Assembly: GCF_027941915.1 (NCBI RefSeq)
Contig: NZ_CP116009.1
Coordinates: forward strand, 3,162,001-3,226,000
From: Ramlibacter tataouinensis
Lineage (GTDB): Bacteria; Pseudomonadota; Gammaproteobacteria; Burkholderiales; Burkholderiaceae_C
Direction of reading: 5' to 3'
Length of the DNA stretch: 64,000 nt
Shown piece after piece: positions 33,521 through 36,314 of the stretch (positions within the stretch are counted from its first letter, which is position 1; the number at the start of each line of letters is the position of its first letter). The notes beneath the pieces are model-generated. The model was not told where the DNA came from, did no database searches, and was given only the letters and a program-made list of their open reading frames with translations. Made by a program: the position numbers and the translations under genes.

Positions 33521-34981
33521 ATGATTTCCCGCGAACCGACACTGGAGCGGCTGGCGACGGCCCAGCGCCTGCTCCTGGAGCCTTTTGGCCTGGACGAATC
33601 CCACCTGTCGCGCGCCCTGGCCGAAATCAAGGCGCACCGGGTGGACGACGCCGATCTCTACTTCCAGTACACGCGCAGCGAGGGCTGGAGCCTGGAGGAG
33701 GGCATCGTCAAGACCGGCAGCTTCAGCATCGACCAGGGCGTGGGCGTGCGCGCCGTCAGCGGCGAAAAGACCGCCTTCGCCTATTCCGACGACATCTCCG
33801 AGGCCTCGCTGCTGGATGCGGCGCGCACCGTGCGCTCGATCTCGTCGTCGGCGCGCTCCGGCCGGGCCAGGGTGAGCGCCAAGAAGGTGGCTGGCAGCCG
33901 CTCGCTGTACCCCGCGGTGGACCCGATCTCCACGCTGGACAGCACGGCCAAGGTGCGCCTGCTGGAGCGGGTGGAGCAGCTCGCCCGCGCCAAGGACCCG
34001 CGCATCGTCCAGGTGATGGCCGGGCTGGCCAGCGAATGGGACGTGGTGATGGTCGCGCGCGCCGACGGCACGCTGGCGGCCGACGTGCGGCCGCTGGTGC
34101 GGCTGTCGGTCACCGTCATCGCCGAGCAGGAGGGCCGCCGCGAGGTCGGCTCCGGCGGCGGTGGCGGCCGCTTCGGGCTGGCCTACTTCGACGAGGACCG
34201 CATCCGCGAGTACGTCGACGACGCCGCCAAGGCCGCGCTGACCAACCTGGAGTCGCGGCCCGCACCGGCCGGCGAGATGACCGTGGTACTGGGCCCCGGC
34301 TGGCCCGGCGTGCTGCTGCACGAGGCCGTCGGCCACGGCCTCGAGGGCGACTTCAACCGCAAGGGCTCCAGCGCGTTTTCCGGGCGCATCGGCCAGCGTG
34401 TGGCGGCCAAGGGCGTCACGGTGCTGGACGACGGCACCATCGCCGACCGCCGCGGCTCGCTCAACGTCGACGACGAGGGCAACCCGACCCAGCGCAACGT
34501 GCTGATCGAAGACGGCATCCTGCGCGCCTACATCCAGGACTCGCTCAATGCGCGCCTGATGGGCGTGGCGGCGACCGGCAATGGCCGGCGCGAGAGCTAC
34601 GCCCACATCCCGATGCCGCGCATGACCAACACCTACATGCTGGGCGGCGACAAGCCGGCCGAGGAAATCGTCGCCAGCATCAAGAAGGGCCTGTACGCCA
34701 CCAACTTCGGCGGCGGGCAGGTGGACATCACCTCCGGCAAGTTCGTGTTCTCGGCCAGCGAGGCGTTCTGGGTCGAGAACGGCAAGATCCTGTACCCCGT
34801 CAAGGGCGCCACCATCGTCGGCAACGGGCCGGACGCGCTGACCCGGGTCACGCTGATCGGCAACGACATGCGGCTCGACAGCGGGGTCGGCACCTGCGGC
34901 AAGGAAGGCCAGAGCGTGCCGGTGGGAGTCGGCCAGCCGACCATGCGCATCGATGGCCTCACGGTCGGCGGCACGGCTTGA
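33521..34981 (+). CDS. tldD: Metalloprotease TldD
   Basis: TldD forms the zinc protease TldD/TldE, which trims peptides (such as modified RiPP precursors) and gyrase-poison antidotes. 486 residues; the zinc-binding motif HEAVGHGLEGD (HExxxH) is near residue 267, and the C-terminal conserved region ETRRESYAHIPMP-like (GRRESYAHIPMPRMTNTYML) and GGQVDITSGKFVFSA is present. TAGAAT at 33509-33514 ends 6 nt before the ATG. The partner tldE (pmbA) is not in the window. Confidence 0.94.
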   Translation: MISREPTLERLATAQRLLLEPFGLDESHLSRALAEIKAHRVDDADLYFQYTRSEGWSLEEGIVKTGSFSIDQGVGVRAVSGEKTAFAYSDDISEASLLDAARTVRSISSSARSGRARVSAKKVAGSRSLYPAVDPISTLDSTAKVRLLERVEQLARAKDPRIVQVMAGLASEWDVVMVARADGTLAADVRPLVRLSVTVIAEQEGRREVGSGGGGGRFGLAYFDEDRIREYVDDAAKAALTNLESRPAPAGEMTVVLGPGWPGVLLHEAVGHGLEGDFNRKGSSAFSGRIGQRVAAKGVTVLDDGTIADRRGSLNVDDEGNPTQRNVLIEDGILRAYIQDSLNARLMGVAATGNGRRESYAHIPMPRMTNTYMLGGDKPAEEIVASIKKGLYATNFGGGQVDITSGKFVFSASEAFWVENGKILYPVKGATIVGNGPDALTRVTLIGNDMRLDSGVGTCGKEGQSVPVGVGQPTMRIDGLTVGGTA

Positions 34982-35006
34982 GGCATCGGGGGCTCATGTG
35001 CTAAAT
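34978..35006 (+). promoter_or_regulatory. Predicted sigma-70 promoter of the aroG leader
   Basis: TTGAGG at 34978-34983 and CTAAAT at 35001-35006 are separated by exactly 17 bp; TG precedes the -10. The predicted transcription start (about 35013) is only a few bases before the leader-peptide ATG at 35016, so the leader ORF would be translated from a leaderless or nearly leaderless mRNA. The -35 overlaps the tldD stop. Confidence 0.6.
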
Positions 35007-35015
35007 TGGCAACCC

Positions 35016-35087
35016 ATGCGCAAGCACAGCGTGTTCTTCTTTGGCTACTTTTGGTTCTCTGGCGCCCCCGGCGGTCGAGAGTCCTGA
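35016..35087 (+). CDS. aroG attenuator leader peptide (aromatic-rich, 23 aa)
   Basis: A 23-residue ORF encodes MRKHSV, then FFFGYFWF at residues 7-14, then SGAPGGRES. Seven of eight residues at 7-14 are Phe (five), Tyr (one) and Trp (one), the end products of the pathway started by the downstream aroG. Codons 17-20 (35064-35075) contain CCCCCGGCGGT, which can pair with the 5' arm of the terminator at 35121. Ribosome stalling on the aromatic codons would leave this segment free, while completing translation to the stop at 35085-35087 would cover it. The ORF is too short to be found by length alone; the residue run and the terminator make it convincing. Confidence 0.85.
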   Translation: MRKHSVFFFGYFWFSGAPGGRES

Positions 35088-35130
35088 GCGTACCTGCAAG
35101 AAACGCAAGAACCCCCGAACAAACCGCCGG
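35065..35130 (+). promoter_or_regulatory. Predicted antiterminator pairing of the aroG attenuator
   Basis: Bases 35068-35075 can pair with 35123-35130, eight base pairs that use most of the 5' arm of the terminator (AAACCGCCGG, 35121-35130). CCCCCGGCGG occurs both at 35065-35074 and at 35132-35141, so leader and terminator 3' arm are sequence copies competing for the same partner, the hallmark of transcription attenuation. Confidence 0.7.
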
Positions 35131-35148
35131 TCCCCCGGCGGTTTTTTT
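35121..35148 (+). terminator. Intrinsic terminator/attenuator before aroG
   Basis: AAACCGCCGG (35121-35130) pairs perfectly with CCGGCGGTTT (35135-35144), loop TCCC, with a run of seven T (35142-35148). It lies 33 bp after the leader stop and 32 bp before the aroG ATG, so termination here would stop aroG transcription. Confidence 0.9.
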
Positions 35149-35180
35149 GTGCCTTTTCCAGACCGCGAAGGAGCCTCCCG

Positions 35181-36314
35181 ATGAACGCAGCCCGATCCGC
35201 CCATGCCAGCGATGCGTGGCCGGTGCACCCCGTCGACAAGACCAGTGCCACCGACGACCAGCGCATCAAGGACATCACCGTGCTGCCCCCTCCCGAGCAC
35301 CTGATCCGCTTCTTCCCGATCCGCGGGACCGAAGTGGAAAGGCTGATCAGCCAGACCCGCCGCCGCATCCACGACATCATGGCCGGCACCGACGACCGCC
35401 TGCTGGTGGTGATCGGCCCTTGTTCCATCCACAACCCGGACGCGGCGCTCGACTACGCGCGCCGCCTGAAGGAGGTGCGCCAGCAGCACGCCGGCACGCT
35501 GGAGATCGTGATGCGGGTGTACTTCGAGAAGCCCCGCACCACGGTGGGCTGGAAGGGGTTGATCAACGACCCCTACCTGGACGAGAGCTACCGCATCGAC
35601 GAGGGGCTGCGCATCGCGCGCCAGCTGCTCATCGAGATCAACCGGCTGGGCGTGCCGGCCGGCAGCGAGTTCCTGGACGTGATCTCGCCGCAGTACATCG
35701 GCGACCTGATCTCCTGGGGCGCGATCGGCGCGCGCACCACCGAAAGCCAGGTGCACCGCGAGCTGGCCTCGGGCCTGTCGGCGCCGATCGGCTTCAAGAA
35801 CGGCACCGACGGCAACATCCGCATCGCCACCGACGCCATCATGGCCGCCGGCCGCGGCCACCACTTCCTGTCGGTGCACAAGAACGGCCAGGTCGCCATC
35901 GTGCGCACCAACGGCAACAAGGACTGCCACGTCATCCTGCGCGGCGGCAAGGCGCCCAACTACGACGCCGACAGCGTGGCGGCGGCCTGCCGCGAACTGG
36001 AGGCCGCCAAGCTCCCGCCGCGGCTGATGGTCGACTGCAGCCATGCCAACAGCAGCAAGCAGCACGAAAAGCAACTCGACGTGGCCCGGGAGATCGGCCG
36101 CCAGATCGCCGGCGGCTCGCGCAGCGTGTTCGGGGTGATGGTGGAAAGCCACCTCAAGGCCGGCGCCCAGAAGTTCAGCCCCGGCAAGGACCGGGCGTCC
36201 GAGCTGGAGTACGGCAAGAGCATCACCGACGCCTGCCTGGGCTGGGACGATTCGGCCCGGCTGCTGGAGCTGCTCTCGCAGGCGGTGGCCGACCGCCGCA
36301 AGCAAGGTCAGTGA
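35181..36314 (+). CDS. aroG: 3-deoxy-7-phosphoheptulonate (DAHP) synthase, class I
   Basis: AroG condenses phosphoenolpyruvate and erythrose 4-phosphate in the first step of aromatic amino acid synthesis. The 377-residue protein has the class I core: LLVVIGPCSIHN, RVYFEKPRTTVGWKGL, SPQYIGDLISWGAIGART, GFKNGTDGN and LMVDCSHANSSKQ (metal-binding Cys near the start of the barrel, His and Glu later in VMVESHLKAG). An N-terminal extension of about 40 residues would carry feedback inhibition by an aromatic amino acid, as in AroF/G/H. SD GAAGGAG precedes the ATG. Expression is predicted to be controlled by the upstream attenuator. Confidence 0.95.
   Translation: MNAARSAHASDAWPVHPVDKTSATDDQRIKDITVLPPPEHLIRFFPIRGTEVERLISQTRRRIHDIMAGTDDRLLVVIGPCSIHNPDAALDYARRLKEVRQQHAGTLEIVMRVYFEKPRTTVGWKGLINDPYLDESYRIDEGLRIARQLLIEINRLGVPAGSEFLDVISPQYIGDLISWGAIGARTTESQVHRELASGLSAPIGFKNGTDGNIRIATDAIMAAGRGHHFLSVHKNGQVAIVRTNGNKDCHVILRGGKAPNYDADSVAAACRELEAAKLPPRLMVDCSHANSSKQHEKQLDVAREIGRQIAGGSRSVFGVMVESHLKAGAQKFSPGKDRASELEYGKSITDACLGWDDSARLLELLSQAVADRRKQGQ

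Follow-up and report, generated by a model that had tools for sequence, protein, structure and literature searches.

The element considered here is the leader of aroG, in a window of 64,000 nucleotides (nt) from Ramlibacter tataouinensis (contig NZ_CP116009.1), the whole stretch of DNA that was analysed, whose positions serve as coordinates and on whose plus strand the features of this locus are found. The aroG gene (35181-36314) encodes a type I 3-deoxy-D-arabino-heptulosonate-7-phosphate (DAHP) synthase of 377 residues, as identified by family-profile and PDB matches: the product reaches 532.1 bits against TIGR00034 (cut-off 173.2), and its best PDB match is 1n8f, "DAHP Synthetase" (E 5e-135), with 5cks, named as phenylalanine (Phe)-sensitive, at 7e-135. 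The narrower AroG model of NCBI gives 537.9 bits, under its cut-off of 568, and the name aroG is kept here from the original prediction, an earlier note on this DNA. A Shine-Dalgarno (SD) sequence, AAGGAG, can be read at 35168-35173.

Upstream of this site, a mini-open reading frame (mini-ORF) at 35016-35087, with the stop codon TGA at 35085-35087, would encode a leader peptide of 23 residues, MRKHSVFFFGYFWFSGAPGGRES, in which the control codons Phe-Phe-Phe-Gly-Tyr-Phe-Trp-Phe, where Tyr is tyrosine and Trp tryptophan, occupy residues 7-14 (35034-35057). Arm 1, UUCUC (35055-35059), is the partner of GAGAG (35077-35081) in a 1:2 stem, which is paired in 92.0% of the cells of a 53-sequence alignment. 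Arm 2 lies within the leader ORF (35068-35081) and joins CCGGCGGU (35068-35075) to the same GAGAG, while arm 3, AAACCGCCGG (35121-35130), is both the 5' arm of a terminator and a second partner for arm 2. Arm 4, CCGGCGGUUU (35135-35144), and the U tract that runs to 35148 complete this intrinsic terminator, the 10-bp (base pair) stem of which (35121-35130/35135-35144) closes on the loop TCCC. The competing 2:3 pairing extends over 8 bp, 35068-35075 with 35123-35130, and the terminator's 3' arm is copied in the leader as CCCCCGGCGG. The original prediction had claimed the 23-codon ORF with its FFFGYFWF block, the competing pairing and the exact copy, and all of these are present in the sequence, the copy also spanning three bases of the hairpin loop. 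It had also claimed a 10-bp stem plus seven T at 35121-35148; the stem stands, and the seven T (35142-35148) exist as well, but three of them already form the 3' end of the stem, the terminator being describable either as seven GC-rich pairs and seven T or as ten pairs and four T.

The aromatic block is exceptional in its surroundings, as it is the single case with seven aromatics among the 114,946 stop-free stretches of eight residues in the six frames of the 64-kb window, where four others at most approach it (six aromatics: 4 stretches). Given that the 1.9 kb around the leader hold three terminator-like sites against 1.2 expected in shuffles, the hairpin alone is not decisive, and it is the 10-bp stem together with its conservation that decides. 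The folding energy of the whole leader is unexceptional (z -1.6; 14 of 200 shuffles equally low).

Conservation was followed in the GTDB family Burkholderiaceae_C, where 208 genomes were searched and 121 loci compared (30 from the 59 genomes of its own genus and 91 from the 149 others), these being the best-scoring matches plus 60 picked by hand from the list, with the paralogue L002 not counted. At 120 of the 121 loci the aromatic mini-ORF is complete and has a terminator after it, the exception (L029) having a mini-ORF without a usable start, so the arrangement is not due to chance. The alignment of orthologues that had been proposed as a check on the mini-ORF thus turned out positive. Phe, Tyr and Trp are all encoded in 113 of the 120 family leaders, and in 13 of 26 leaders from outside the family. 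With end-product codons, an intrinsic terminator, a 2:3 pairing that excludes it, and a 1:2 stem overlapping the control codons, the sequence features of trp-type leaders are present, and we hold with high confidence that, as had been predicted, aroG is subject to ribosome-mediated transcription attenuation by this leader, a design favoured by this conservation and by the footprint model described below. The leader would very probably turn the pathway up under a shortage of Phe, Tyr and Trp, and its codons make it likely that all three are sensed.

The way in which the different parts of the leader have been kept also argues for this design. In 96 of 115 family leaders arm 2 (GGCGG and its variants) falls in frame 0 of the mini-ORF, against 2 leaders with it in frame 1 and 17 in frame 2 (five leaders without the motif were left out), and nearly identical RNA is translated as PGGRE in some leaders and PAVER in others, which indicates that arm 2 is selected as RNA. 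The aromatic block, for its part, is kept as codons, with YFWF in 83 of the 120 leaders and exchanges between TAC and TAT and between TTT and TTC. The 1:2 stem covaries, with a score reached by only one of 500 shuffles in the 53-sequence alignment. Between lineages, the leader arm appears to track the terminator 5' arm, most one-arm changes being matched: leader CGACGG occurs at six of the nine loci with the terminator arm CCGTCG and at none of 115 with CCGCCG (Fisher 1.9e-8), and leader TGGCGG at 11 of 18 loci with CCGCCA against eight of the 115 (Fisher 4e-7), values which ignore relatedness and do not include three loci with other arms. For the one locus with CCGCTG, this comparison gives no exact leader partner. 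As a side observation, TTT makes up 321 of the 530 Phe codons of the 120 family leaders, whereas in the same genomes the portion of aroG that was sampled has it at 54 of 461. The preference may reflect slower decoding, or a requirement that the RNA be rich in U and free of structure.

The start of the leader is also unusual. An extended -10 promoter element, TGC-TAAATT, lies at 34999-35007, and the predicted transcription start (approximately 35012-35016) would be at the mini-ORF ATG or at most 4 nt before it. This layout, TGn plus a -10 hexamer beginning 12-15 nt before the ATG, is common to 109 of the 120 family leaders, and the same test is passed by only three of 3856 other ATGs at these loci. 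An SD-like site precedes the mini-ORF in none of the 120 leaders, while one is found at 94 of the 120 aroG starts. Given the proximity of the extended -10 element to the ATG and the absence of SD-like sites, the leader mRNA is probably leaderless. The base before the ATG is C in 78% of the family leaders and T in 16%, a preference which is expected when transcription starts at the A. Among the 26 leaders from outside the family, which were listed rather than counted in this respect, the upstream layout is not general, and leaderlessness looks like a trait of the family. The probable leaderless transcript had not been part of the original prediction.

In the proposed mechanism, RNA polymerase would initiate at or beside the ATG, and a ribosome would load on the leaderless 5' end and follow the polymerase. 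When all aromatic tRNAs are charged, the ribosome would pass the aromatic block and cover arm 2, leaving arm 3 free for arm 4, and transcription would end. When charged Phe-, Tyr- or Trp-tRNA is scarce, it would stall in YFWF with its leading edge just before arm 2, which could then pair with arm 3 ahead of the synthesis of arm 4, allowing aroG to be transcribed. This was modelled by folding, codon by codon, the RNA left free downstream of the ribosome while arm 4 has yet to be transcribed. For the leader in the window, 2:3 is predicted to form over 7 bp at every tested A-site codon through the Phe codon at 35055, the last aromatic one; it retains four pairs at codon 35058 and has none thereafter, and is thus lost within two codons. 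Across the 120 loci, at least five pairs between arm 3 and leader RNA are predicted in 85 when the ribosome stalls at the last aromatic codon and in none when it is at the stop codon, with the switch codon at most one codon from the last aromatic in 78. Without translation, the leader of the genome itself would fold into the 1:2 hairpin plus the terminator.

A number of results weigh against this interpretation. Within the family, the covariation of 2:3 and 3:4 does not rise above that of shuffles (scores reached by 228 and 64 of 500, respectively, in the 53-sequence alignment), given that these arms are nearly invariant there, and the one measure that stands out is the fraction of 3:4 cells that are paired (6 of 500 shuffles); compensatory change is seen in the 1:2 stem and, between lineages, in the tracking of the arms. 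Three of the nine CCGTCG loci lack the matching leader change, two of them carrying CGGCGG, which is pairable through G-U. The size given to the ribosome footprint, 15 nt past the first P-site base, is an assumption taken from general knowledge, and the model itself leaves 35 of the 120 loci without five pairs at the last aromatic codon, lets 39 of the 120 free leaders form 2:3 without any ribosome, and in the window permits 2:3 from stalls at early non-aromatic codons as well. Once the RNA is complete, the terminator gives the lowest-energy fold wherever the ribosome stalls, which means that the switch would have to be kinetic. It had also been proposed that the stop codon is placed so that a terminating ribosome covers arm 2; this does not always apply, as the stop ends 25-32 nt past the arm in nine of 115 leaders, too distant for full cover. 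In addition, arm 2 proper sits in the loop of a short, 5-bp 1:2 stem, and the exclusion between 1:2 and 2:3 would thus be looser than in trp.

Other explanations of the same features may be considered. The attenuator may effectively sense Phe only, perhaps with Tyr, in which case Trp and the other aromatic codons would be passengers. Phe is indeed the commonest control residue, with means per leader of 4.4 against 1.6 for Tyr and 1.0 for Trp, Trp is absent from 12 of the 26 leaders outside the family, a separate Trp-Pro-Trp mini-ORF precedes trpE in the same genome, and the AroR leader of Corynebacterium glutamicum (Phe-Tyr-Phe) is described as responding to the availability of Phe and not of Tyr (PMC11802643). 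Within the family, however, Trp occurs in 114 and Tyr in 119 of the 120 leaders, and in the 83 leaders with YFWF both stand in this motif, whose four codons are the final aromatic ones ahead of arm 2, where a modelled stall is effective. We consider restriction to Phe possible but rather doubtful, and continue to favour a leader that reads all three amino acids.

A second possibility is that the hairpin terminates the upstream gene, or is a constitutive terminator, and that the mini-ORF arose by chance. The upstream ORF (33521-34981) does end only 140 nt 5' of the hairpin. A promoter-like element nevertheless lies between the two, the only eight-residue stretch of the window with seven aromatics is found exactly here, and the mini-ORF and terminator persist at 120 of 121 loci, in contrast to the poorly conserved positions -60 to -20 ahead of the mini-ORF, so that this account is largely excluded by conservation and hardly credible. 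The main function might instead be the arrest of the nascent peptide, as in TnaC or SecM, or the action of the leader RNA or peptide in trans. The terminated leader would be a leaderless mRNA of approximately 135 nt, resembling rnTrpL of Sinorhizobium meliloti, which is described as active in trans (PMC7298713). Past the aromatic block, on the other hand, it is the RNA that is kept, and the peptide differs from one reading frame to the next, which speaks against a specific arrest peptide. As the main function this appears very unlikely, while the terminated leader may have an additional role in trans alongside attenuation.

Attenuators of this general kind are well known. The trpL, pheL and pheST leaders of Escherichia coli, to which the Rfam families Trp_leader and Phe_leader correspond, share the 1:2, 2:3 and 3:4 plan, the control codons in an ORF and the intrinsic terminator; they differ in being single-amino-acid leaders of terminal-branch or synthetase genes, whereas the aroG leader is probably leaderless. 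The nearest precedent is aroR/aroF of C. glutamicum, where the aroF gene is preceded by the AroR leader, described as carrying Phe-Tyr-Phe (PMC11802643, PMC4046766); an aromatic leader peptide, ribosome-mediated attenuation and a DAHP synthase downstream are common to both, while the C. glutamicum system belongs to an actinobacterium and no Trp is named in its description, the leaders being compared by description only. In Acholeplasma, the uORFC-13-1 motif upstream of aroF is presented as an upstream ORF with one or more Phe codons (PMC8632094), which, like the aroG leader, is followed by a terminator and a DAHP synthase gene, but in another phylum and with only Phe in its description. The trpL/rnTrpL attenuator RNA of S. 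meliloti likewise begins at the ATG of the leader peptide, according to its description (PMC7298713), but belongs to a Trp leader that controls trpE(G), and leaderless attenuator leaders are known in Streptomyces as well. In a Shewanella study, aroF is entered as "Attenuator sensing tyr-tRNA" and work on E. coli is cited for this (PMC2659441), the main text of Naville and Gautheret 2010 (PMC2965389) makes no mention of aroG or aroF, and for Burkholderia cenocepacia 82 short transcripts from 5' untranslated regions have been reported (PMC5688073). In the open-licence papers searched, no description was found of an attenuator at aroG in Burkholderiales, nor of the tri-aromatic, leaderless form. 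The aroG attenuator is thus apparently a known kind of regulator that has gone undescribed in Burkholderiales, with two probable traits of note, the presence of three aromatics among the effective codons and the leaderless start.

In the window, all Rfam families stay below their thresholds, the Phe_leader family (RF01859) scoring 19.3 bits where 55 is its gathering score, and 20 order-level loci give no Rfam match at E<=0.1, while NCBIfam has no family for the two leader peptides searched. The matches to RNAI, Phe_leader, ncS54 and others are weak, none coming near its threshold, and were taken as chance matches to the terminator hairpin, and an identification with the Burkholderia small RNA ncS54 was dropped on the grounds of its sub-threshold match and of the order loci.

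Textbook control of the aromatic amino acid flux consists of repressors and feedback inhibition. At about even chances, the leaderless mini-gene may be read as an OR gate that responds to a shortage of charged Phe-, Tyr- or Trp-tRNA and sets transcription of the first shared enzyme, an old device of many Burkholderiales which stands in place of the enteric repressor logic for aroG and in which, within the family, the ATG start couples the first ribosome to the polymerase from the first nucleotides. The attenuator provides a specific, testable account of how the aromatic amino acid flux is set in a large group of bacteria from soil, water and plants. With up to three amino acids read by one leader, and the switch placed by the model near the last aromatic codon, it would be a good system for studying how several tRNA signals are combined, and the apparent leaderless start would make the coupling of the first ribosome to the polymerase accessible to direct test. 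There may also be relevance to the engineering of aromatic production in harmless relatives.

While the original prediction had looked to Comamonadaceae, the range of the leader is broader. Outside the family, 26 of 65 order loci have both the mini-ORF and the terminator, with leaders such as MSAKFYFYFFWHLKPLADREG and MTRRFFFFFYYFPCLLADGTG; 39 lack one or both parts, and some of those genes are possibly not orthologues. Among the matches listed, the best 80 named contigs include 57 with leader and terminator, in records titled Ramlibacter, Hydrogenophaga, Polaromonas, Acidovorax, Variovorax, Comamonas, Caballeronia, Paraburkholderia, Massilia and Janthinobacterium, among others, and the nearest relative of the window AroG among these 80 is that of Ramlibacter sp. 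Leaf400 (87%); one contig (L230) stops too early to be scored. Named records without the leader include three Polynucleobacter and two Cupriavidus copies, one of the latter on chromosome 2 (L246-L249, L253), with AroG relatives at 75-77%, while a third Cupriavidus copy has it; the leader can therefore be lost or left behind. AroG relatives were also noted in records titled as metagenome-assembled genomes (MAGs) of Bordetella parapertussis (L258, 69%), Gemmataceae (L260, 65%) and Anaerolineae (L292, 63%), and the last two contigs may be mis-binned.

A covariance model built on 53 non-redundant family leaders finds one strong copy in the genome itself (E 5e-21), the next matches being the same hairpin on the opposite strand (0.28) and one at 0.88. 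Under the stricter filters of the large searches, 87 of 300 order genomes match at E<=0.01 and 76 at E<=3.1e-4, the 11 of the 87 with E above 1e-3 being possibly due to chance, and a DAHP synthase frame lies 3' of the match in all 30 order loci kept. Seven of 369 class genomes match at E<=1e-4, four of them outside the order (L300-L303), and all four show, in this order, an aromatic mini-ORF, a hairpin with a T run and a DAHP synthase frame. Leaders of different sequence and the same plan are thus present in some of the order and, beyond it, in four genomes of the class, and these four loci suggest that the device, or a convergent one, extends to two other families. Their leaders are of the FPKPLAEEG type in three cases and of the HWRKG type in one.

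Finally, other genes of the aromatic pathway were inspected in the same genome. A second DAHP synthase gene (55% identity), which had not figured in the original prediction, was found to have no leader of the aroG type, and no aromatic leader of this type was seen at pheA or trpE. A conserved mini-ORF with Trp-Pro-Trp does lie upstream of trpE, and it seems that aroG carries the three-way leader while trpE has one of its own. At this trpE (2150692-2152089, minus strand; L304), the mini-ORF reads ...RGAWPWR... and is followed by a strong hairpin without a T run. When relatives were compared (L306-L334), GAWPWR was found inside the best mini-ORF at 26 of 30 trpE loci and in some frame at 29 of 30, and TGCTACACT was seen immediately 5' of the ATG at many of the mini-ORFs, although these were not counted. 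The peptide is conserved past both Trp codons and could be a specific arrest peptide.

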